In this document: positions 17,783 to 30,039 of the stretch, in pieces
Layout of the letters: each line of letters starts with the position of its first letter
Numbering within the stretch: position 1 is the stretch's first letter
Source: Sandaracinaceae bacterium
Lineage (GTDB): Bacteria > Myxococcota_A > Polyangia > Polyangiales > Sandaracinaceae
DNA length: 64,000 nt
Assembly: GCA_040218145.1 (NCBI GenBank)
Contig: JAVJQK010000050.1
Location: 62,001-126,000, forward strand
Direction: 5' to 3'
Made by a program: the position numbers and the translations under genes
The notes under the pieces: model-generated
What the model was told of the DNA's origin: nothing
The model's input: only the letters and a program-made list of their open reading frames with translations
Database searches by the model: none

Positions 17783-18217
17783 GGTCCCAGCTGGCACCAG
17801 ACGCATGCCGTGTTCCGGGTCGCGCCTTCAGCCGCCGTCCGCGGGGCCGGCGTCGTCGCATCCGCGAATCGTGCAGTCGCGGACACCCGCCGTCGTGCAG
17901 GTGCAGAGGTTGCAGCCGTCGAAGCAGGCGCTCTCGAACCCCGGTCGGGGCGGCCGGTCGAACGGGACGCACTCGGGGGCGCACTCGGCGGCGGGCAGAG
18001 GCTGCGGCTCCCCGGCGCAGCCCAGCGCCAGGAGCACGCACGCCGTGATGAGCGCGGCGAGTGCAGGCTTCATGTCCTCTCCGAGTCAAGTTGGATCGCG
18101 AACGCCACGCCGCTCCATCATGGCGCGCCGAGCGCGGGCCGCCAAGCTGCGGGTCGCCCCGCCCGAAGCGACGCGACTTCGGTTATTCTCCGCCGGGGAT
18201 GGTGGAGGAGGCACGGC
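17783..18217. repeat. 435-bp direct repeat, copy 2
   Basis: Partner of 15444-15878. It contains the paralogous small lipoprotein gene and, at its right end, the upstream region and first 19 bases of the complete kinase gene at 18199. Since the kinase reading frame continues uninterrupted here, this is likely the ancestral copy. Recombination between copies would delete 2,339 bases, including the tandem array and the coiled-coil gene, and leave the kinase gene whole. Confidence 0.92.
17828..18073 (-). CDS. Small Cys-rich lipoprotein, copy 2
   Basis: An 81-aa lipoprotein nearly identical to the one at 15489-15734 (same signal peptide and lipobox LALGC, same cysteine pattern). Differences lie mainly in the mature part (for example FDRPPRPG versus FDPPPPPG, and TTAGVRDCTI versus TTAGLRRCAI). 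It is divergent from the large kinase gene, whose start is 125 bases away, so the two share an upstream region. Function is unknown. Confidence 0.7.
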   Translation of the reverse strand: MKPALAALITACVLLALGCAGEPQPLPAAECAPECVPFDRPPRPGFESACFDGCNLCTCTTAGVRDCTIRGCDDAGPADGG

Positions 18218-21200
18218 GCGGGGAGGCGGCTCCCCCGGAGCGGGTGGGGGCGTGGACGGTCGGGCGTCAGCTCGGGCGCGGCGGCGCGGGGGCGGTGTTC
18301 GCGGCCACCCACGAGAAGACCGGCGTCGAGGGGGCGATCAAGATCGCGCATCTGTCGAGCGGCGCCGTACAGCGGCACTGGTTCCTCCGCGAGGCGGCGC
18401 TCGCGACCCGGCTGCGGCACCCGGCGATCGTCTCGCTCTGGGAGGCGGGGCAGCTCGACGACGGACGGCCCTTCCTGGTCTACGAGCGCGTCGTCGGGCC
18501 GACCCTCGAGGAGGTCGCGGAGTCGCTCTCGCTCGAGCAGGTGGTGCGCTTCGGCGCGCAGCTCCTCGACGCCCTCGGCTACGCGCACGACGCGGGCGTG
18601 GTGCACTGCGACGTGACGCCCTCGAACGTGCTGCTCGCGGAGGGCGAGCGCGCACGGCTCATCGACTTCGGGCTCGCGAAGGCGGCCGGCGAGCGCGCCC
18701 TCGATCGGCGGGCGGCGTCGCGCGTCAGCGGCACGCCCGGCTACCTCAGCCCCGAGCAGGCGCGCGGAGCGGGGAGCCCGGGGCCCGCGAGCGATCTCTT
18801 CGGGTGCGGCGCGGTGCTCTTCCGGCTCTTGACGGGGCACGCGCCCTACGGCGGCGACACGGCGCTCGAGATCGTGAAACACACGCTCACGCAGGCGCCG
18901 CTCCCGCTCCGACCGCGGCGCGGGCTGCAGGCGCCCAAGCGGCTCGGCGAGGTCGTGCAGCGTCTGCTCGCGCGAGACCCCGAGCACCGCTACCCGAGCG
19001 CGGCGCTCGCCCGACACGAGTGGTTCGACGCGGCCGCGACCGACACCCCGATCGAGGGCGCGGTCCGCCCCATCGTCCCGCTCCGCCCGGGGCTGCAGTC
19101 GCTCGAGACCATCCTCGTCGACAGCGTGCAGTCGGCGCGCCCCGTCGCCGCCTTCTCCACCGTGCAGGCCACGCCGCACAGCGGGATCCGGCGGGCGGGG
19201 GCGTCCGAGGCCGACGCCGCGCCGCTGTTCGGCCGGGACGCGCTGCTCGACGAGCTCTGGGCGACGCTCGAAGCGGAGGGCGAGGTCGGCGTCGTGGCCG
19301 GCGCGGGGCGAGGCAAGTCGCGCGTGCTCGACGCGCTCGGCGAGCGCGCGAAGGACGCGGGCCACCGCGTGGTCCGGACCCGCGGTCGCCGCGGCGCTCT
19401 GTGCGCGCCGTTCGAGGCGCTCGCGACCCTCTGCCTCGACGCGATCTCGGCCGCCACCTTGGCGCCGCCCTGGCTGGCCGCGGAGCGGCTCTCGGCGTCG
19501 CTCGGCGACCTGGCGCTGAGCGATCGAGAGGGCGCGCGAGACGCCGTCGTCGGCGGCCTGCTCGGGGTGGGCCCCACCGGCTCGACGCGGGGCGCGACCA
19601 TGCTCGCGCACGAGGTGCTCGTCGGGCTGCTCGACCTCGAGCGCCGCCCGATCCTGCTGATGCTCGACGACGCGGACGGAGTGGACGACGGCACCTGGGA
19701 GGCGGTGCGGTCGGTGCGACAGGCGTTCCCCGACCGGGTCTCGCTCGCGTGGGCCGGGGAGGGCGTGGACGGAGCGCCGCTGCCGCCGCTCGACGCCGTG
19801 GCCCTCGACGCGCTCTGGGAGACGCTGTCGCAGGGGCCTCGCCCCGAGCAGGACGCGCCCGCGGATCTGCTCGCGCTCGCGGGCGGCGGGTTCGACGCGC
19901 TCCTCGCCGCGCTCTCGCCGTCCGCCCGCAGCCTCCTCGCGGCGGCGAGCGTGTTCGAGGGAGAGGCCCCGAAGCGAGCGCTCGCCACGGTGGCCGAGGT
20001 GCTCAGCGCGCCCTACGAGGTGGACGCGGACGCGCTCCAGGAGCTGCTCGACGCGCGGCTGGTGGTCGAGATCCCCGACGCGAGCGCGCGCTTCGAGCGC
20101 TGGGTCCGGCTGCCGTCCCCCGGGCTGCGCGCGCACCTCGAGGCCTGGCTCGACGCGCCGACCAGGCGGCTGGCGCACGGCGCGGCCGCGCAGTGGCTCT
20201 CGCGGTCCTCGCTCGACGCGACGGCGGCCAACCTCGCGCGCGTCGCGCACCACGCGCGGCTGGCCGGCATGGAAGCGAGCGCGGCCTACGCCTGGAGCGA
20301 GGCCGGGCGCATGGAGATCGAAGCGAAGCGGTCGGCCGAGGCGGCGCGGTGCTTCGAGCGCGCCCTCGAGCTGGCGCAGGGGCCGGCGGCCGAGGCGATC
20401 GACCGCCCGCGCATCCTCTGCCAGCTCGCCGAGGCCGCGCTCTCGGAGGGCCGCGCGGCGGACGCGGACGGACACGCCGAGCGCGGCCTGCTCGCCGTGG
20501 AGCCCGAGCGCACCGTGCTCCGGGCGCGGCTCCTCCAGATCCGGGCCGAGGCGGCGGTGCAGGCCACGCAGCTCCACGACGCGCTCGGCGACTTGCGGGT
20601 CGCGATCCAGATCCTCGGCGAGCAGGGTGACCCGATGGAGCTCGCGCGGGCCCACGCCTCGCTCGGCTGGGTGCTCGGCTATCGGCTCGGTCGGAACGAC
20701 GAGGGCATCGCGCACGGCCGTCGCGCGCTCGAGATCGCGGCCGAGATCTCCGCGCCCGCCTTCCGGGCTTCGCTCTGCGGCCGCCTCGGCGCGAACTACC
20801 TACGCGCGGGCAACTGGGACGGGCAGCTCGACGCCAACCGCGAGGACTTGCACCTCTCGCGCCGGGCCCGCGACGCGTACGGGCAGGTCCGCGCGCACAT
20901 CAACCTCGGCGTCTGCTACACGAACCGCGGCGACCTCGACCGCGCCCGCATGCACACGGAGGCCTCGTTGTCGTTGGCCGACCGCTGCGGCGCCCAGGGC
21001 GCGGCGCAGATCGCGCACAACAACCTCGCGATGATCTCGGTGGACGAGCAGCGCTGGGACGAGGTCGACGCGCACGTCGCGGCGGTGTTCGAGGCGGCCG
21101 AGCGCACCGGCTACAAGCGAGCGTTGCCCGAGACCCTCGTCAGCCAGGCGCGCGCGTGCATCCACCGCGGCGCCCTCGACGAGGCGGCCGACGCGCTGGC

Positions 21201-21537
21201 GAAGGCGCGCGCCCTGAGCGACGTGGCCGACGACGAGGTGGTCGAGCGTGTCTCGCTCCTGCTCGACCTCGCCCGGGCGCAGGCGGACGAAGCGGACGTC
21301 GATCTTCCCCGGAGCGAGGCGCTGATCGCGCGGGCCGTGCACGACCCCTACGAGCGCGCCGCGAGCCGCCTCACCCACGCCGCGCTCCTGCGCCACGCCG
21401 GCCGCGCCCGAGACGCCGCGAGCGAAGAGGCCGAGGCGGCCAAGACCCTGCGCGCGCTCGGCGCCGACCTCTCCCTCGAGCACCGCCGCTGGGGCGACCA
21501 CGCGCAGCTCGGCGAGGTCGAGACCCTCTCGCGCTGA
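18199..21537 (+). CDS. Ser/Thr kinase fused to AAA-type ATPase and TPR domains
   Basis: A 1112-aa cytoplasmic regulator of the myxobacterial kinase/ATPase/TPR type. Residues about 15-275 form the kinase: glycine loop GRGGAGAV (26-33), Lys48 in AIKIA, HCDVTPSN (136-143) and DFG (156-158). The usual HRD arginine is Cys137, but the catalytic Asp138 and Asn143 are present, so activity is possible. An ATPase module follows, with a Walker A variant AGAGRGKS (367-374) and a Walker B-like ILLMLDDAD. The last 400 residues are TPR-like helical pairs (for example AQIAHNNLAMISVDEQRW). I chose ATG 18199 because kinase homology begins soon after; a frame open to 18061 runs through the repeat. It probably senses a partner and signals by phosphorylation. 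Confidence 0.88.
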   Translation: MVEEARRGEAAPPERVGAWTVGRQLGRGGAGAVFAATHEKTGVEGAIKIAHLSSGAVQRHWFLREAALATRLRHPAIVSLWEAGQLDDGRPFLVYERVVGPTLEEVAESLSLEQVVRFGAQLLDALGYAHDAGVVHCDVTPSNVLLAEGERARLIDFGLAKAAGERALDRRAASRVSGTPGYLSPEQARGAGSPGPASDLFGCGAVLFRLLTGHAPYGGDTALEIVKHTLTQAPLPLRPRRGLQAPKRLGEVVQRLLARDPEHRYPSAALARHEWFDAAATDTPIEGAVRPIVPLRPGLQSLETILVDSVQSARPVAAFSTVQATPHSGIRRAGASEADAAPLFGRDALLDELWATLEAEGEVGVVAGAGRGKSRVLDALGERAKDAGHRVVRTRGRRGALCAPFEALATLCLDAISAATLAPPWLAAERLSASLGDLALSDREGARDAVVGGLLGVGPTGSTRGATMLAHEVLVGLLDLERRPILLMLDDADGVDDGTWEAVRSVRQAFPDRVSLAWAGEGVDGAPLPPLDAVALDALWETLSQGPRPEQDAPADLLALAGGGFDALLAALSPSARSLLAAASVFEGEAPKRALATVAEVLSAPYEVDADALQELLDARLVVEIPDASARFERWVRLPSPGLRAHLEAWLDAPTRRLAHGAAAQWLSRSSLDATAANLARVAHHARLAGMEASAAYAWSEAGRMEIEAKRSAEAARCFERALELAQGPAAEAIDRPRILCQLAEAALSEGRAADADGHAERGLLAVEPERTVLRARLLQIRAEAAVQATQLHDALGDLRVAIQILGEQGDPMELARAHASLGWVLGYRLGRNDEGIAHGRRALEIAAEISAPAFRASLCGRLGANYLRAGNWDGQLDANREDLHLSRRARDAYGQVRAHINLGVCYTNRGDLDRARMHTEASLSLADRCGAQGAAQIAHNNLAMISVDEQRWDEVDAHVAAVFEAAERTGYKRALPETLVSQARACIHRGALDEAADALAKARALSDVADDEVVERVSLLLDLARAQADEADVDLPRSEALIARAVHDPYERAASRLTHAALLRHAGRARDAASEEAEAAKTLRALGADLSLEHRRWGDHAQLGEVETLSR

Positions 21538-21712
21538 CTGCGGCAGTAGGCAGGAGTCGCGCGCGATACGGTGTAGAGAACGAGCGGCTTCGATCGCTGC
21601 GGGAGCCACTCCCCCTCAAGGAGAGGAAGCCGACTCGAACACGCGTCGAGTCGCGCAGACCGACCGGGTCGATGCAAACGTGCTCGCTGCGAGTCATGAT
21701 ATAGGTGGGAGC

Positions 21713-22438
21713 ATGGACTGGCCGCATCTAGAGACCCCTCCGATCGTGGAGGCTCTCATCGACATTCAAGTCGAAGCGGAGCCAGATCTAGACGCCCTGC
21801 GGGGGTTGCACGCTGGACTGAAGACCGACTACCCCCACCTGCTCGAGGGCCGCCAAGAGCACGTGACGGTCCGCCGCGATGGCGCCGCGACGCAGTTCGA
21901 TCACTTGCAGCGGCAGCGCGGGTTCGCGGTGGCGTCGGCAAACCACGAACGACTCGTCCAGTTCAGGGACGATGGCTTCACGTTCAACTGGCTTGGCCCG
22001 TACGAATCGTGGGTCAGCCTTCGCGATGAGGCCCGTCGGACGTTTGCTGTCTACTTCGACGTCATTGGCCCGCAAGCGATCTCCCGAATTGGTGTCCGGT
22101 ACGTGAACCGAATCGAGATTCCTGAAGGGGTTGAGCTGAGCACGGTGACAAAGCTGCACGCCCAGGTGCCGCCGGGGCTCCCTCAGTCGGTGGGGGGAGA
22201 GATGCTCCGCGTCCTCTTGAAGTTCGAGCCGCGAACCATCGCCCTAGTCAGTTCGTTGGTTGAAGCTCAGCCCGACCCTAGTGGATTTGCCTGCGTTCTG
22301 GACATCGACGTGTTCCAACAGAAGCCTCTGCCCTTGGACCTTGAGGGCGTCTGGGAACGGCTGGAGGAGCTACGGGAGGTGAAGAACAAGGTGTTCTTCC
22401 GCACCCTAGCCGCGGATACACTGGAGCGATACAGATGA
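21713..22438 (+). CDS. TIGR04255-family-like protein
   Basis: A 241-aa protein whose N-terminus (PPIVEALIDIQVE) and middle (FNWLGPYESW, SRIGVRYVNRIEIP) match what I know of the sporadically distributed TIGR04255 family, whose function is unknown. It starts at ATG 21713 with a GGTGGGAG ribosome-binding site just before it. The next gene begins inside its stop (ATGA overlap at 22435), so these genes form one translational unit. Base composition is visibly lower in GC than the flanking genes, with more A- and T-ending codons, suggesting recent acquisition. The family name is assigned from motif memory, not from a search. Confidence 0.7.
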   Translation: MDWPHLETPPIVEALIDIQVEAEPDLDALRGLHAGLKTDYPHLLEGRQEHVTVRRDGAATQFDHLQRQRGFAVASANHERLVQFRDDGFTFNWLGPYESWVSLRDEARRTFAVYFDVIGPQAISRIGVRYVNRIEIPEGVELSTVTKLHAQVPPGLPQSVGGEMLRVLLKFEPRTIALVSSLVEAQPDPSGFACVLDIDVFQQKPLPLDLEGVWERLEELREVKNKVFFRTLAADTLERYR

Positions 22439-22884
22439 ATCTAGTTCCCATCGACCTGACGTCGCGCCGCCAATCCACAGCGAGTGAGTCTCGCGAGACT
22501 GCTGGCAAGGGGGGGCTCGAGCACTCACGGGATTGGTCAGACTCGCTTGGCGAGATCTTGATACGCAGGGGGGTGAGTCCAGTGAGCGTGGCCGCCCGGC
22601 GGGCTGAGGAGCTTATTGCCAAGGGGAAGCGTAGAGCGGCCCTCGATGTGGCGCTCCGAGCTGTAGACCGCGCGCTGAAGCAAGGAAACTTCAGGACGCT
22701 TCGGGAGTTCTTCGCACAGCACGATTGGGAACAGGGAACCATCGACGTGAGCGTCACGTTGCTGATGGCCGCCAAGCCTGCACGTAAGGCTATTCCCGAG
22801 CGCCGGACTGCCGTAGCCCGTCTTCTGCGGCGTCTGCTTCGTGAGGCGCCTGAACGACATAGCAAGATTGCGCCCTTCCTCTAG
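22435..22884 (+). CDS. Hypothetical protein of the low-GC island
   Basis: A 149-aa basic protein that I do not recognise. ATG 22435 overlaps the previous stop by four bases. The first 40 residues look disordered. Residues about 50-140 are helical and Arg/Ala-rich (SVAARRAEELIAKGKRRAAL, then RRTAVARLLRRLLREAPER). No cysteine or catalytic pattern stands out. Tight coupling to its neighbours suggests it works with the TIGR04255-like protein, perhaps as a binding partner. Confidence 0.6.
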   Translation: MNLVPIDLTSRRQSTASESRETAGKGGLEHSRDWSDSLGEILIRRGVSPVSVAARRAEELIAKGKRRAALDVALRAVDRALKQGNFRTLREFFAQHDWEQGTIDVSVTLLMAAKPARKAIPERRTAVARLLRRLLREAPERHSKIAPFL

Positions 22885-22887
22885 GTT

Positions 22888-23688
22888 GTGTCGGATTGGC
22901 TACGAAAACACTCGGGACTTGACGAGTGCGGGGAGTTTGCGGTCGTTGTCGGGGGGGTTGGCCTTCGACAGCGGCACTCAGGTGCTTACTACAGGACGAC
23001 GGCTGAGGGTGATGTACGCTTTGTCCACCTTGCCTTCCACCATGACCTGAGAACGGCGGACCCGCCGAACCACAAGTACCGGTGGGTGCAACCCGCCGCC
23101 CTCGATGAGTCTTTGCTGAACTTCCTTGGCGCGCTGTGTCGGGAGATCCGTGATGGCGCCCCGGAACTTCCGTATGGTTTCGGCAACGGCTCGTTCGATC
23201 GTGTGAACGGCACGTATGTCCAGGCGGGTGCACCGCGTGGGCTAACGTGTGCCACCTTCGTGCTCGCCCTCTTCGCGGCCTACGAGATCGACGTAGTGGA
23301 TCTGGAAGAATGGCCGCCGCGGCGAGAAGACGCTGAGTGGCAGCGCTCGATCCTGTGCACCCTCAAGGCCCAGTTTCCTGGTGCATCAGATCGGGCGTAC
23401 TTTGCTCATATCGAAGCGGATATTGGCAACTGCGTGCGGGTGCGGCCTGAGGAAGTTGCTGGTGCTGCCTCACGCGACACGTTTCCGGCCGACTTTGCTA
23501 CCGCCGAAGCGCTTGGACGCCAAGCGGCGGCGGAGCTCACGCGAGACTTTCTTCGGCGAGAATCAAGCCGCTTTCCTAAGATTGCTTCAAAGCTGCGGAG
23601 CCTCGCGAAGGCAGGCGTCGAGGATCTCAAGGAGAACCATCTCCGAGTCTTCGAGGTGATCCTAGACAACATCCCTTGGCGGCGATAG
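22888..23688 (+). CDS. Hypothetical protein, possible cysteine-hydrolase fold
   Basis: A 266-aa protein starting at GTG 22888, three bases after the previous stop. No signal peptide. The segment APRGLTCATFVLALFAAY (about 112-129) looks like the nucleophile helix of papain-like or NlpC/P60-like hydrolases, where a Cys starts a buried helix. Several His residues lie upstream (FVHLAFHHDLR), but the matching His after the helix is not obvious, so an enzymatic role is a suggestion only. The C-terminal part is charged and helical. Like the two genes before it, it is less GC-rich than its surroundings. It converges on the Tad operon. Confidence 0.55.
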   Translation: MSDWLRKHSGLDECGEFAVVVGGVGLRQRHSGAYYRTTAEGDVRFVHLAFHHDLRTADPPNHKYRWVQPAALDESLLNFLGALCREIRDGAPELPYGFGNGSFDRVNGTYVQAGAPRGLTCATFVLALFAAYEIDVVDLEEWPPRREDAEWQRSILCTLKAQFPGASDRAYFAHIEADIGNCVRVRPEEVAGAASRDTFPADFATAEALGRQAAAELTRDFLRRESSRFPKIASKLRSLAKAGVEDLKENHLRVFEVILDNIPWRR

Positions 23689-23760: not shown

Positions 23761-24867
23761 TCACTCGACGCCGTGGGTGTAGATCGCGTCGGGGAGCTCG
23801 TAGCCGTGGCCGCGGATCACCTCGGCCGCCTTGGGGACGAAGCCGGTGGGCTCGAAGCGGCTGAGGATGCGGCCCCGCTCGTCCTGGCCCTCGTACTTGC
23901 GCACGAAGATGTTCTCGAGGTGGTAGCCCTTGTCCGGGTCGTAGCCCTGGACCTCGGCGATGTGGGTGACGCAGCGGCTGCCGTCGCGCAGGCGGCTGGT
24001 CTGCACGATGAAGTCGATCGCGCTCGCGATCTGCGCGCGCATGGCGCGGAGCGGCATCTGGATGTCGCTCATCATCGCCATGGTCTCGAGCCGGTTCATG
24101 GTGTCGGTGGGGTAGGTGGCGTGCACGGTGGCGAGGCACCCGCCGTGGCCAGAGGTCATGGCCTGCACGAGATCGAGGGACTCGGCGCCGCGGATCTCAC
24201 CGACGACGATGCGGTCGGGCCGCATGCGGAGGGTCGCCTTGAACAGATCGCGGATGCTCACCGCGCCGCGGCCGCGGCTGTCGGGCGGGCGCGCCTCGAG
24301 CTGCACGATGTGCTCCTGCTGGCACTGCACCTCGCGCGTGTCCTCGATGACGACGATGCGCTCGTCGGTCGGGATGAACCCGGTGAGCGCGTTGAGGAGA
24401 GACGTCTTGCCCGAGCCGGTGCCGCCGGCGACGATGATGTTCTGCTTCACCACCACCACCGAGCGCAGCAGGTGCGCCGCGTCCGCGGTGAAGGAGCCGA
24501 ACTCGAGGAGCTTGTCGATGGTCAGCGTCTCCTTCGCGAAGCGACGGATGGCGACCATGGGGCCGTCGGGCGCGGCCGGCGGGAGCACGGCCTCCACGCG
24601 GGAGCCGTCGGGGAGGCGCGCCTCGAGGATCGGGCGGTGCTCGTCGACGTGACGGCCGACGAACTGCGCGAGGTTGCGGAGCGCGGCCGTCAGCGCGTCG
24701 CGCGAGGGGAACGCCGCGTCGACCTTGTGAAGCTTGCCGCGGCGCTCGATGAAGATCTGGTCGGGCCCGTTGATCATCACCTCGCTGACGGTGCTGTCGT
24801 CGAGGAGCGGCCGGACGGGCTCGAGGAACTTGAGGAGGGTCTGCTCGAAGACTTCTTTGGGGATCAC
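23761..24867 (-). CDS. cpaF: Tad secretion ATPase, CpaF/TadA family (second copy)
   Basis: A 368-aa hexameric ATPase that powers Tad (Flp) pilus assembly at the inner membrane. Walker A is GGTGSGKT (148-155). It also has an Asp box/Walker B region (RMRPDRIVVGEIRGAE) and the His box (GHGGCLATVHA). The N-terminal domain is shorter than in the other CpaF of this operon and has no FHA domain. It starts at GTG 24867 with a GTGA overlap with the upstream TPR-lipoprotein gene and is the last gene of the operon. A second ATPase in one Tad operon may serve retraction or a specialised step. Confidence 0.9.
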   Translation of the reverse strand: MIPKEVFEQTLLKFLEPVRPLLDDSTVSEVMINGPDQIFIERRGKLHKVDAAFPSRDALTAALRNLAQFVGRHVDEHRPILEARLPDGSRVEAVLPPAAPDGPMVAIRRFAKETLTIDKLLEFGSFTADAAHLLRSVVVVKQNIIVAGGTGSGKTSLLNALTGFIPTDERIVVIEDTREVQCQQEHIVQLEARPPDSRGRGAVSIRDLFKATLRMRPDRIVVGEIRGAESLDLVQAMTSGHGGCLATVHATYPTDTMNRLETMAMMSDIQMPLRAMRAQIASAIDFIVQTSRLRDGSRCVTHIAEVQGYDPDKGYHLENIFVRKYEGQDERGRILSRFEPTGFVPKAAEVIRGHGYELPDAIYTHGVE

Positions 24868-25538
24868 GGCGCGGCCTCCTCGGGCGTCGTCGCGGCTTCT
24901 TCTTCCGCTGGCGCAGCTTCCACGTCAGCGGTCTCGTCGTCGGCGGTCTCGGGCATGGGCACGCGCTGGGGAACGCCGCGCTCCTCGCTCGTCAGGGCCG
25001 CGCGCGCCTCGGCGCGGTGGCTGCCTTCGGGGGCGAGCGCGAGGTAGCGGCGGAAGTGCTCGCGCGCGGCGTCCGCGTCGTCGAAGGCGTCCCGGTGCAG
25101 GACGCCGAGGAAGTAGTAGGCCTGCGGCTCGTCGGGCGCGTCCTCGAGCACCCGCTCGAGCTCCTCGCGCGCCTCCTGGTGATGGCCGAGCCCCATGCGG
25201 ATGGAGGCGACCAGCATGCGGAGCGACCACTGCTCGGGGTTGGCCTCGAGGTAGGGCTCGGCGTAGTCGAGCGCGGCCGCGAGGCGCGAGGCCTCCACGC
25301 ACACCGCGAGGAGCGCGGGCACGACGCGCTCGGCCTCGACGCCGCGATCCATCGACGCGGCGAGGTACTGCTCGGCCCGCGCGTAGTCGCCGCCGCGCGC
25401 GAGGAGCATGCCGCGGCGGTAGAGCTCCTCCGCGTCGATCGACTCGAGCGGATCGGCCCGCGCCTCGTCGGCGCCGGTCTGCGCGCCGCCGCACGCGGCC
25501 AGCGCGAGCATGACGAAGAAGACGAGAGTGCGGGTCAT
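24864..25538 (-). CDS. TPR lipoprotein of the Tad operon (TadD-like)
   Basis: A 224-aa exported lipoprotein. The signal peptide MTRTLVFFVMLALAACG has lipobox LAAC. Residues about 40-180 contain three or four tetratricopeptide units (SIDAEELYRRGMLLARGGDY, EPQAYYFLGVLHRDAF) and an acidic Glu/Ala/Thr-rich tail follows. TadD-type lipoproteins act as pilotins or scaffolds for the secretin and sit in this position in other Tad loci. The gene overlaps both neighbours (TGATG upstream, GTGA downstream). Confidence 0.75.
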   Translation of the reverse strand: MTRTLVFFVMLALAACGGAQTGADEARADPLESIDAEELYRRGMLLARGGDYARAEQYLAASMDRGVEAERVVPALLAVCVEASRLAAALDYAEPYLEANPEQWSLRMLVASIRMGLGHHQEAREELERVLEDAPDEPQAYYFLGVLHRDAFDDADAAREHFRRYLALAPEGSHRAEARAALTSEERGVPQRVPMPETADDETADVEAAPAEEEAATTPEEAAP

Positions 25539-26395
25539 CAGGCGCTGTCGATGTGAATCTGGAGCTGACGCGCGAGCTGCCGCAGCCAGGTCAGGTAGGG
25601 GTCGCCCTCGCGGTGGCGCAGCAGCTCGATCAGGGCGCGCGCCTCGAGGAGGGAGTCGGGGAGCCGGCCCTGCTCGAGCGAGCGCTCGAGGCGCAGGCGG
25701 TGGTGGCGGTAGTCCTCGTCGATGCGCCGCTGCATCGTCGCGGCCTCGCGCCCCATCACGGCGGCCTCGGTGGGGGCGTTGATGGCCGTGTAGCAAGCCT
25801 GCGCCCGGAGATAGAGCCGCACCGCGTCGACGCCGTCCTGCGAGTTGAAGGGGTAGCGCTCGGCCTTCGCGATGGCCGCCTCCGCGTCCCGGTCCGCGCG
25901 GTGGCGCGCGGGGCCACCCTGCGAGGCGCACGTGACCGTCTCGTCGAAGAGGGTCGGCGGCGGCGCGGCCGGCGTCATGTCGATGCCCGGATCGTCTTCG
26001 GCCAGGAGCAGCCAGCCGACGAGCGGGATGATGATGAAGAAGGCGATGAGGATCGGCGCGGAGACCTGCTTGTCGTCCGGGTCCTTCTTCTCTTTGGGCA
26101 GCTGGTCGGTGACGCGCAGCTTGAGGTTGCCGACCTGCAGCTCCGCGCCCCAGCCGAGCATGCCGTGCTGGAAGGGCTGGCCGCCCGCGAAGACCGGCGT
26201 GCCCGCGCCCTGGGCCACCGCGACCCAGCAGCCGTCCGCGCGCGGCGCGAGCATGAGGTGCTCGGGCTCGAGGTCGCGCGCGTCGGGGATCGGGATCCCC
26301 GCGGCCGGCGAGCGACCCACGGTCACCTGCTCGCCCTCGATGCGTTGCCGCTCGAGGGTGCCGTCTTCGCGGATGATTTCGACCCAGCATTCCAT
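25538..26395 (-). CDS. FHA-domain membrane protein of the Tad operon
   Basis: A 285-aa protein with an N-terminal FHA domain (residues about 5-95: VTVGRSPAAGIPIPDARDLE, where FHA proteins usually have GRxxxN...S..H; here EPEHL), a charged linker, one transmembrane helix (about 115-135, PILIAFFIIIPLVGWLLL) and a helical C-terminal domain. FHA domains bind phosphothreonine, so it may link Ser/Thr kinase signals to the pilus machine. The start is ATG 26395. It overlaps the TPR gene and lies 21 bases after tadC. Confidence 0.75.
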   Translation of the reverse strand: MECWVEIIREDGTLERQRIEGEQVTVGRSPAAGIPIPDARDLEPEHLMLAPRADGCWVAVAQGAGTPVFAGGQPFQHGMLGWGAELQVGNLKLRVTDQLPKEKKDPDDKQVSAPILIAFFIIIPLVGWLLLAEDDPGIDMTPAAPPPTLFDETVTCASQGGPARHRADRDAEAAIAKAERYPFNSQDGVDAVRLYLRAQACYTAINAPTEAAVMGREAATMQRRIDEDYRHHRLRLERSLEQGRLPDSLLEARALIELLRHREGDPYLTWLRQLARQLQIHIDSA

Positions 26396-26416
26396 GAGAG
26401 CTCAGTACCCGGGCCC

Positions 26417-27310
26417 CTAGAACCCGCTGTCCATCGACTGCACGATGAATGGGCCGAGGAGGACGAGGATGATAGCGCCGAAGATGAGCATCAGGGGGCC
26501 CATCATCAGCACCGCCGCGCGGGCCGCCGACTCCTCCGCCATCACGCTCCGCCGCATGCGGAGCATGTTCGCCTGGATGCGCAGCACCTCGGCCAGCGGG
26601 TTGCCCTTCTCCTCGGACTGCACGACCGTGCCCACGAAGTCGCGCACCGCCTCGGTCGGGCAGCGATCGGCGAAGTTCTCGAGCGCCTGGCGCCGCGTCC
26701 GGCCGAGCTCGATCTCCTGCAGGATGAACGACAGCTCCTCGACCAGCCAGTCACGCCGCCCGGCCTTGTCGACGATCTGGCGAATGGAGCCGGGGAAGTC
26801 GAGGCCCGCGCCCATGCAGAGCGAGGCGAGGTCGATCGCGCCGGGCAGCGCGCGGTTGACCTCCTTGAAGCGCTGCTGGGTGGCGGAGCTGACCTGCATG
26901 TAGGGCAACAGCCCGCCGAGCCCGGCGAAGAAGAAGACGAGCACCGAGGGCAACTCCGCGAGACTCACCGCCACGAGGCCGAAGACCGTGAAGCCGACGA
27001 CGCCGAGCGCGCTCATGGCCACGAACTCGTTGGCGGTCAGCCCGAGCCAGTCGCCCGAGTGCTTGAGCATCTCGTCGATCTGCCGCCGCTTGTCGCCGAG
27101 CGGCAGGTGCGCGACCCAGCCCGCGACCATGCGCATGATCGGCTCGAAGCTCTTGAACGAGCCGCCCTCGTCGAGGGCCTTCGCGCGCTTCAGCCCGCGC
27201 ATGCCGAGCCGCGGCGTGTCGACCGGCTTGTTCCGCGCGAGCGTGAACACGCCGAGGAAGACGCCGGAGCAGAAGAGGCCGAGGGCCGTGTACGCGTAGA
27301 CCTGGTACAT
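26417..27310 (-). CDS. tadC: Tad inner-membrane platform protein TadC
   Basis: A 297-aa polytopic membrane protein of the type II secretion F / GspF family. It has an N-terminal TM (YTALGLFCSGVFLGVF), a pair around residues 105-150, and a C-terminal TM (MMGPLMLIFGAIILVLLGPF), with the cytoplasmic T2SSF domain between (DLASLCMGAGLDFPGSIRQI). With TadB it forms the platform on which the CpaF ATPase acts. It starts at ATG 27310, 15 bases after tadB. Confidence 0.9.
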   Translation of the reverse strand: MYQVYAYTALGLFCSGVFLGVFTLARNKPVDTPRLGMRGLKRAKALDEGGSFKSFEPIMRMVAGWVAHLPLGDKRRQIDEMLKHSGDWLGLTANEFVAMSALGVVGFTVFGLVAVSLAELPSVLVFFFAGLGGLLPYMQVSSATQQRFKEVNRALPGAIDLASLCMGAGLDFPGSIRQIVDKAGRRDWLVEELSFILQEIELGRTRRQALENFADRCPTEAVRDFVGTVVQSEEKGNPLAEVLRIQANMLRMRRSVMAEESAARAAVLMMGPLMLIFGAIILVLLGPFIVQSMDSGF

Positions 27311-27325
27311 CCGCTCAGAGGTCCA

Positions 27326-28192
27326 CTAGATGTCCACCGCGAGGATCTTGCGGGCCAGCAGGATGGCGGTGACCCAGAGCACGGCCGCGACCGAGATGAT
27401 CGCGAAGCCCAGGGTCGAGCTGCCGAGCGGGTCCAGCCAGTGCTCGTCCACCATGTGGATGGCGCCGATGAGCACGAAGGGGATCACCCCGAGCACGTAC
27501 GCCTGGGTCTTGCCCTCGGCCGTCTTGGTGCGGACCACGCCCTCGAGGCGCGCCATCTCGCGCAGGGTCGCGGCCGACTCCTCCATGATCTTCGGCAGGT
27601 CGCCGCCCGTCTGACGGCCGACGAGGATCGTCGCGAGCGCGCTCGAGATCGCGGGGCTGCCGACGCGGGTCGACATGTTCAGGATGGCCTGGTCGAGCGG
27701 GGTGCCGAGCTTCATCTCCTTGAGCGCGAGATCGAGCTCCTCGCCCATCGGCGGCCGCATGAGCTTCGCGCTGCTCGCGATGGCCTCGCCGAGCGACGGG
27801 GTCGCCTTCAGCGCGTTCGACAGCAAGAGCAGCCACGAGTCGAGCTGCCCCTCGAGCCGCTGCACCCGCTCGGCCGCCTTGCCCTTGAGGACGTAGTAGG
27901 GCGCGAGCGCGATGGGCGGGGCGAGCAGCAGGTAGATGAAGTCGTCGAGCACGAACGCGAGCACCGGCGTGAGCCCCACGCCGATGAGCTGCAGGCGCGC
28001 GATGCTCGCCCCCGTCCGATCGAGGAGCAGGAAGCGGCAGAGCTTCTCGAGCTCGTTCTCGTAGCGCCCCCAGGCGAGCCTGAGGCTGCTCGAGGGGTCG
28101 GCGGCGAGGAGCGTGACGGTGACCGCGGCGCCGATCACGAGGAGCACGAGCCCCGCGTAGCCCAGCACGTAGGTCATGGTGTCGGCGGTCAC
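27326..28192 (-). CDS. tadB: Tad inner-membrane platform protein TadB
   Basis: A 288-aa T2SSF-family membrane protein. It has a TM at residues about 8-30, a pair near 70-105 (VGLTPVLAFVLDDFIYLLLA) and a C-terminal pair (ILLARK near the end). The cytoplasmic domain has the typical LLLLSNALKATPSLGEAI. The GTG start at 28192 overlaps the stop of the FHA-CpaF gene (GTGA); an ATG five codons in is an alternative. It is the partner of TadC. Confidence 0.9.
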   Translation of the reverse strand: MTADTMTYVLGYAGLVLLVIGAAVTVTLLAADPSSSLRLAWGRYENELEKLCRFLLLDRTGASIARLQLIGVGLTPVLAFVLDDFIYLLLAPPIALAPYYVLKGKAAERVQRLEGQLDSWLLLLSNALKATPSLGEAIASSAKLMRPPMGEELDLALKEMKLGTPLDQAILNMSTRVGSPAISSALATILVGRQTGGDLPKIMEESAATLREMARLEGVVRTKTAEGKTQAYVLGVIPFVLIGAIHMVDEHWLDPLGSSTLGFAIISVAAVLWVTAILLARKILAVDI

Positions 28193-30039
28193 AGGTAATC
28201 TCCATCACGCACGAGACCTTGCGCAATGAACTCGTCGAGGAAGCTCGGCAGATAGCCCGAGGCGCGGAACTCTCCGAGCACCTTGCCGCCCTCGCCCATG
28301 CCGGTGCGGTGGAAGGCGAAGATGTCGTGCAGCTCGACCTGGCCGTCGTCGTCGAGGCCGACCACCTCGCTGATCGCGGTGATGCGGCGGCTGCCGTCGC
28401 TGAAGCGCGTCTGCTGCACGATGACGTCGATGCTCTGCGCGATCTGCTCGCGGATGGCCTTCGCGGGGAGATCCAGGCCGCTCATCAGGGCCAACGTCTC
28501 GAGCCGGCCGACCGCCTCGCGCGGGCTGTTGGCGTGCGTGGTGGTCATCGAGCCCTCGTGGCCCGTGTTCATGGCCTGCAGCATGTCGAGCGCCTCGCCG
28601 CCGCGGCACTCGCCGACGATGATCCGGTCGGGCCGCATCCGCAGCGCGTTCTTCACGAGATCGCGGATCGTGTAGGCGCCCTTGCCCTCCATGTTGGCCG
28701 GGCGCGACTCGAGGCTGACCACGTGCGGCTGCACCAGCTGCAGCTCCGCCGCGTCCTCGACCGTGACCACGCGCTCGTCGTCGGGCACGTGGCTGCTCAG
28801 CACGTTGAGCAGCGTGGTCTTGCCGCTGCCCGTGCCGCCGCTGATCACGATGTTCTTCCGCGCCTTGACCGAGCGCTCGATGAACTTCGCCATCCCCGCG
28901 CTCATCGAGCCGAACTTGATGAGGTCGGAGACGCGGAGCGGCTCCTTGGCGAACTTCCGGATGGTGATGCACGAGCCGCGGATGGCGAGCGGGCGGATGA
29001 TGGCGTTGACGCGCGAGCCGTCCCGGAGGCGCGCGTCGACGAGCGGCGTCGACTCGTCGATGCGCCGACCGAGCGGGGTGACGATGCGCTCGATGACCGC
29101 GCGCACCGCCTCGTCGTCGGTGAAGCGCAGCGCCGTCGGCTCGATGCGGCCGTTGCGCTCGACGAAGATCGTCTCCGGGTCGACGACCATGATCTCGCTG
29201 ACCGAGTCGTCGGCGAGCAGCCGCTCGAGCGGGCCGAGGCCGAGCGCCTCGTCGGTGATCTCGTCGATGAGCTGCGCGGTGTTGGTGCTCGGCGGCAGGT
29301 CCCCGCCCACCTCGCGCATGATGAGCCGCAGCGCCTGACGCACCTTGGGGCGCATCGCGCTGTCGCTCATCTTGTTGCGGTCGAGGCTCGCGAGGTCGAG
29401 GTTGTCGAGCAGCATCCGGTGGATGCGCTTGCGGGCCTGGACCGAGACGTCGGCCGTGCCGGTCACGTCGTAGGGGCTCGCGCCCTCGGACTTCTTCGGC
29501 TTCTTCTTCGGCGGCGGGGGCGGGGCCTGGCTCTTCTCGGGCGGCGCGGGGGGCGCCTCCACGGAGCGCAGGTGCGGCTCCGCGCTCATCGCGGGCGCGC
29601 CGACCGCCTGGGCCATCGCGGGCGGAGACGGAGGCCGCGGCATCGACGGCGCGGCGGGCGGCGCGGCGCGCGGGGGCGCGGGCGCGCTCACGGGCGGCCG
29701 AGCCGGCTGCTGGGGCTGACGCGGCGCGGGCTCCGCCATGTGCCCGTGCACCTCGAGCCAGATCACGTACGGCCCCACCCGCATCGGGATCCCGCCCGGC
29801 GCGGCGATGGTCGTCCTGTGCAAATGAGATTGCCCCACCATCGTGCCGTTCGCGGACGCGTCGGTCACGTGGTAGCCGCTGGGCGTCTTCTCGATGGTGA
29901 GGTGGCGGCGCGAGACGTCGGGGGAGGGCAGCACGATGTGGCACGAGGGGTCGCGCCCGATGACCACCGGGCCGCGCTCGTGGACGGCCAGTGTCTCCAC
30001 CGTGCCGTCCGCCATCTCGATCGTCATGTTCAGGGACAC
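28189..30039 (-). CDS. cpaF: FHA-CpaF fusion, Tad secretion ATPase
   Basis: A 616-aa fusion. Residues 1-100 are a canonical FHA domain ([37 protein letters not shown]), which binds phosphothreonine peptides. About 100-190 is a Pro/Ala linker with a short Lys/Pro patch. From about 195 to the end it is a CpaF-type ATPase: Walker A GGTGSGKT near residues 399-406, a Walker B region [16 protein letters not shown] and a His box [10 protein letters not shown]. It should drive Flp pilus assembly under kinase control. GTG 30039 has a GAGG site about 8 bases upstream; ATG 30027 is a possible alternative start. Confidence 0.92.

Follow-up and report, generated by a model that had tools for sequence, protein, structure and literature searches.

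The locus raises two questions: where three tightly packed genes of low GC content came from, and what they may do for their host. In the window, i.e., the whole stretch of 64,000 nucleotides analysed here, reading of the open frames places the genes A, B and C on the + strand at 21713-23688. Gene A (21713..22438, + strand) starts with the ATG at 21713, about 7 nt downstream of the RBS-like sequence ggtggga, and encodes 241 amino acids (aa); gene B (22435..22884, + strand) also has an ATG start and encodes 149 aa; and gene C (22888..23688, + strand) starts with GTG and encodes 266 aa. An earlier note, made from the bare sequence, had described a 4-base overlap followed by a 3-base gap, and this is the arrangement found, with ATGA shared by A and B and three bases preceding the GTG of C. 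The lower GC content that it had noticed is equally clear, amounting to 0.614 over 21713-23688 versus a window mean of 0.714 (SD 0.027, 1976-base windows). A GC content as low or lower occurs in 33 windows, all of which start at 21667-21743, hence on the island; elsewhere in the 64 kb no 2 kb falls below 0.64, making the island the lowest-GC 2 kb. The preference for A/T-ending codons is reflected in GC3 values of 0.75 (A), 0.67 (B) and 0.66 (C) versus 0.92-0.99 in the real flanking genes (upstream kinase, 0.96; downstream Tad-like genes, 0.95-0.99).

The right-hand edge of the variable region was placed by same-species alignment at 23761..23767, the 3' end of a convergent TadA gene, which is 73-79 bases past the end of C. 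One conspecific genome matches at 98.3% identity over 23767-29548 and is unrelated left of 23767, while in more distant members of the family homology ends at 23778-23834. Because relatives lose homology there, the region left of the TadA 3' end is regarded as variable in the family. No match to A, to C or to the C-terminal domain of B (termed Bd below) was found in the same-species genome, the assembly of which is 84% complete. On the left side of the island, no syntenic relative was found, hence no left boundary was fixed. Low GC together with the unrelated same-species DNA indicates that the three-gene island is acquired, which agrees with the earlier note.

On the - strand, 23761-30039 is a Tad-like pilus locus, which encodes an FHA protein and contains two TadC-like genes as well as two genes for TadA-type ATPases that share ~67-69% DNA identity. 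Directly left of the island, 18196-21537 encodes a large Ser/Thr kinase-AAA16-TPR protein. No DNA of high identity to this gene is present in the same-species genome, and the gene may thus belong to the variable region.

Gene A is a full-length member of the NCBIfam family TIGR04255, as the earlier note had recognised. It scores 129.4 bits (cut-off, 30), residues 6-239 covering model positions 2-250 of 252, so that the curated cut-off is exceeded over most of the length. Its structural model (pLDDT 79.3) comprises two similar strand-helix-strand units, and Foldseek matches it to TBP (probability 0.98-1.00, TM at most 0.45) and to TBP-like proteins of giant viruses, with TM values of 0.6 or less throughout. 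This is suggestive of a duplicated TBP-like (helix-grip) fold. Comparison of the gene A profile with the sequences of solved structures gave chance matches only. A guanido-kinase function was set aside (Z up to 8.7, identity just 6-9%). TIGR04255 is present in 53 of 240 genomes of the host's class; according to their coordinates, five TIGR04255 genes of that class, including the one in the window, stand before a C gene. Most members examined precede other second genes (e.g., for helix-turn-helix proteins) instead of the Bd-C pair. In those loci (L022-L051), TIGR04255 is mostly the first of two genes that overlap by 4 bases, the second encoding a variable N-terminal tail of low complexity and a swappable C-terminal domain, which is a helix-turn-helix domain in L022-L033 and another domain elsewhere. 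A literature search, which covered mostly papers available without subscription, found no paper on TIGR04255.

The product of gene B consists of a variable N-terminal tail (~60 aa) and Bd (22618..22878, + strand; residues 62-148), a helical domain of ~87 residues delineated by a hidden Markov model (HMM), which is the only conserved part of the protein. The HMM was built from 40 relatives, with about 12 of the 59 C loci outside profile building, and detects Bd in gene B with an E-value of 3.7e-22. In 56 of the 59 distinct C loci, a count that includes L073, Bd ends the protein encoded just 5' of C; of the other three, one is truncated where its contig ends and two are without Bd (L066, L071). 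Conversely, Bd was found in 18 of 230 genomes of the host's class, nearly always adjoining C; one orphan Bd lacks a C gene (L129), and the single copy in the island's own genome is that in B. Gene B has no match in Pfam, NCBIfam or PADLOC, and the Bd profile gave chance matches only among the sequences of solved structures; Bd is a previously undescribed helical domain, and we propose B as an adaptor that works through it. The organisation of the TIGR04255 loci without B-C (L022-L051) suggests that TIGR04255 proteins dock the N-terminal tail of the product of the following gene; gene A is proposed to be the sensor or docking subunit. In one of the two loci without Bd (L066:4373-5854), the C-like frame runs on into a metallo-beta-lactamase-like domain, possibly a fusion or an assembly error.

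For gene C, no family match was obtained in Pfam, NCBIfam or PADLOC (0 PADLOC families at E 1). The Pfam and NCBIfam clade models of NlpC/P60 gave nothing at E <=1 except one chance match, and comparison with the sequences of solved structures again gave chance matches only. The order of residues in C is His30-His47-Tyr96-Cys121, i.e., the His and the polar residue precede the Cys, and from this His-before-Cys order a permuted fold was predicted ahead of the structural search. The AlphaFold2 model of C (pLDDT 90.6, pTM 0.88) was then matched by VIA-align to YiiX (Z 9.1; 3.9 A over 156 residues), BcPPNE (Z 7.8), TseH (Z 6.4) and the picornaviral Aichivirus 2A (Z 5.5). All four matches with Z > 5 are permuted NlpC/P60 proteins; the next match has a Z of 2.7. 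The fold was missed by plain Foldseek (nothing better than E 0.3), as expected since C is permuted, and was recovered by VIA-align together with the residue pattern.

The four predicted catalytic positions are strongly conserved among relatives. The codon of the catalytic His30 (22975..22977, + strand) specifies His in 56 of the 57 relatives covering the site, and the lone exception appears to be the Nannocystis gene, in which the B and C frames look broken. The third, polar catalytic residue, His47 (23026..23028, + strand), is H in 46, D in 7, E in 4 and N in 1 of 58 relatives and corresponds to Glu64 of YiiX/BcPPNE (PMC3142127). Tyr96 (23173..23175, + strand), the fourth NlpC/P60 catalytic residue, is Tyr in 58 of 59 and corresponds to Tyr127/Tyr115 (PMC3142127). 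The catalytic Cys121 (23248..23250, + strand) is invariant (59/59); in the motif-derived set the stretch GL[TS]C.TFVL was imposed by the search, and the Cys is also invariant in the motif-free set. Cys121 is the first residue of helix 121-130, i.e., the Cys-started helix to which the earlier note had drawn attention. Permuted NlpC/P60 proteins are recognised by a papain-like fold in which the His and the polar residue come ahead of the Cys, and by conservation of these three and of the Tyr; C shows both features, and its four positions answer to the catalytic Cys, His, Glu and Tyr named for YiiX/BcPPNE (PMC3142127). Sequence and model thus show C to be an NlpC/P60 enzyme of the circularly permuted type, in which the Cys-His-polar-Tyr active site is intact, and we read it as a new family within this superfamily. 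It has the same fold, the same His-polar-Tyr-Cys order and the same catalytic residues as YaeF/YiiX, LRAT, TseH and Tox-Act1 (PMC3142127, PMC12994826). However, it differs from the known permuted clades in matching no Pfam or NCBIfam model and in being operonic with Bd, and no secretion context was seen for it; it, therefore, likely acts in its own cell.

As to the substrate, the fold relatives Tox-Act1 and TseH, which are permuted NlpC/P60 toxins, are phospholipases (PMC12994826), and lipid-binding pockets have been argued for permuted NlpC/P60 proteins (PMC3142127); for these reasons, C is read as lipid-directed. Since permuted NlpC/P60 enzymes are also found in lipid metabolism (PMC12994826), the island might instead be an ordinary housekeeping or lipid-metabolism operon with unusual composition. 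The distribution of C makes this very improbable. A single-protein scan of the genome contigs with C found nothing; because the family is too divergent for such a scan, relatives were instead sought with aligned motifs and by searching whole genomes. By whole-genome search, C relatives occur in 17 of 240 genomes of the host's class, in 3 of 274 of the class of Marinobacter and in 5 of 198 of a Planctomycetota class (seed genome included in the latter two), and the motif scan located relatives in Planctomycetota, Bacteroidota, Acidobacteria, Sulfuricurvum and alpha-, beta- and gammaproteobacteria. Such sporadic occurrence, carriage on plasmids and prophages, the exchange of partners and the fusion to restriction enzymes all argue against a housekeeping role.

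Other loci bear signs of mobility. An integrase-partner-B-C order is present in L106, L115 and L113/L103, with AlpA next in L113/L103, and in L139 the integrase follows A-B-C; neighbours of the cassettes thus include integrases or excisionases, and L138 adjoins tail genes. No phage record matched C; IMG/VR prophage contigs do match. Small plasmids of Acinetobacter and Psychrobacter carry the cassette (pAJ_082-4, 6.9 kb; pA46P4, 6.6 kb), and on a 539-kb Rhizobium plasmid the triad adjoins multiubiquitin-ThiF-DUF6527 genes. In all, the order TIGR04255-B-C recurs in ~14 other loci, including this Rhizobium plasmid and prophages. Neither of the two outcomes that the earlier note had named as speaking against its proposal, chromosomal GC and a triad never found together elsewhere, was seen.

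Going beyond that note, comparison of the loci shows the conserved core to be formed by B and C, with gene A as the swappable part; Bd-C is a fixed pair, in front of which the partner is exchanged. TIGR04255 is the upstream partner in 15 loci, a proteobacterial ~245-aa family in 11 (including two small Moraxellaceae plasmids), a helical 226-aa family in five, XRE-M78 proteins fused to Bd in four and ParA-like ATPases in two. The remaining partners are 714-723-aa proteins fused to Bd (two), an AriA-like ATPase (L072) and a few single cases. Homology of TIGR04255 with the other ~240-aa first genes was unsupported by profile comparison, L068 excepted. The 714-723-aa proteins (L070:10072-12213, L074:6831-8999), which neither NCBIfam nor PADLOC nor, for L070, Pfam recognises, are probably a new sensor type. 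In L062 (4098-10333) and L069, a very large upstream gene, a 129-aa gene, the ParA-like ATPase, B and C follow each other consecutively; the 1339-aa protein has a weak PIN-TPR-GreABC match only.

A further result not foreseen in the note is that the C-terminal domain of B is fused to restriction enzymes elsewhere. One Polyangiaceae assembly encodes two such fusions, of Bd with a type III Res that has its methylase alongside (L088) and, at a separate locus, with an MmeI-type IIG enzyme (L105). An SspF-SspG-SspH operon closes with Bd and C (L055), Bd being a short separate frame there, which may reflect a frameshift; in L090 the cassette lies downstream of HsdR and in L065 it adjoins DrmMI of DISARM. 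Thus, in relatives Bd-C is attached or adjacent to SspFGH, to type I, IIG and III restriction and to DISARM, whereas none of their genes is in the island, where the partner is TIGR04255. In a scan of the flanks for defence genes, run without a matched control, most flanking proteins gave no match. PADLOC, likewise, returned no model match for A, B or C, and the island corresponds to no anti-phage system catalogued there. Several of these partners are complete immune enzymes (type IIG, type III, SspFGH) and Bd sits at their extreme C-terminus, adjoining C; as papain-fold enzymes are often proteases, C might act as a processing protease or deamidase on Bd or its partner, serving maturation or activation, with the upstream partner as the real effector. 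We consider this quite unlikely, given that the partners in the window and at most loci (TIGR04255 and the other ~240-aa families) contain no recognisable catalytic domain, that the permuted topology of C is tied to lipid substrates (PMC3142127, PMC12994826) and that C takes the place of AriB behind an AriA-like ATPase.

The latter arrangement, in L072, has Bd-C directly behind the AriA-like ATPase, where PARIS would carry its effector AriB. PARIS consists of the ABC ATPase AriA and the TOPRIM nuclease AriB. On meeting anti-restriction proteins, AriA frees AriB (PMC11455837). The same logic of a sensor and a sequestered effector is proposed for the cassette; however, searches of A, B and C revealed neither AriA nor a TOPRIM AriB in the island, and the effector chemistry would differ. 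This logic, known also from PrrC, could equally describe a toxin-antitoxin-like addiction or guard unit, in which the Bd protein neutralises C and its loss or inhibition frees C. Translational coupling of the genes, which overlap by 4 bases or are separated by short gaps, the carriage on small plasmids and prophages, and the release of AriB by AriA (PMC11455837) combined with the one locus with an AriA-like first gene are in line with such a unit, while the toxicity of C and its neutralisation by Bd are putative. We regard it as rather unlikely, noting that it overlaps with the main reading and differs mainly in the trigger, i.e., loss of the partner versus positive sensing.

The main reading, which we hold with moderate confidence, takes the island for a modular cassette that is mobile and directed against phages (or mobile elements), composed of a sensor, a Bd adaptor and, as the proposed effector, a cytosolic and probably cell-damaging C. 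Defence function, trigger and substrate are what we infer, defence by association, and the same associations are what speaks for the 'defence or toxin-like' role suggested in the earlier note. Operon structure points to contacts between A and B and between B and C. Accepting these, A (TIGR04255) would sense an infection cue and hold the N-terminal tail of B, while Bd would bind C and either keep it silent or recruit it. Upon infection, C would be released or switched on within the cell and damage it, most likely by deacylation of membrane phospholipids, or else by protein cleavage, so that the phage could not finish. C could instead be a regulator. At other loci, a restriction enzyme, an AriA-like ATPase or an XRE-M78 protein would drive the Bd-C output instead of A.

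The recurrence of Bd-C across several bacterial phyla on restriction enzymes, prophages and small plasmids leads us to regard the pair as probably a reusable anti-virus output unit. A bolder version, to which we would give slightly less than an even chance, is that Bd-C is a general-purpose immune output cartridge, plugged into TIGR04255, type I/IIG/III restriction, SspFGH, AriA-like and M78 proteins, which would become infection-triggered systems that attack the membrane of their own cell. Small helical domains likewise link varied components to an effector in EADs and GAAD adaptors (PMC7159879); an EAD-type adaptor, however, requires a homotypic copy on the effector, and no second Bd was found on C, nor was a STAND, vWA or GTPase core detected. 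Bd-C extends the known modular immune systems as a newly named adaptor-effector pair common to several unrelated defence systems, and it is a larger finding than the triad, which for its part suggests a testable role for TIGR04255. If this reading is true, searches with Bd-C would reveal restriction enzymes with a built-in back-up effector, and the permuted NlpC/P60 fold would extend from secreted toxins to intracellular immunity. The literature search, again mostly of papers available without subscription, found none on a Bd-C module.

In a pair of Planctomycetota cassettes, dN/dS amounts to 0.08 (first gene), 0.28 (B) and 0.17 (C), indicating from sequence comparison that these cassettes are under purifying selection. 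In Hankyongella and Nannocystis (L094:8702-10586, L059:8556-9898), A, B or C seems split or broken in frame, and the cassettes look disrupted by frameshifts.
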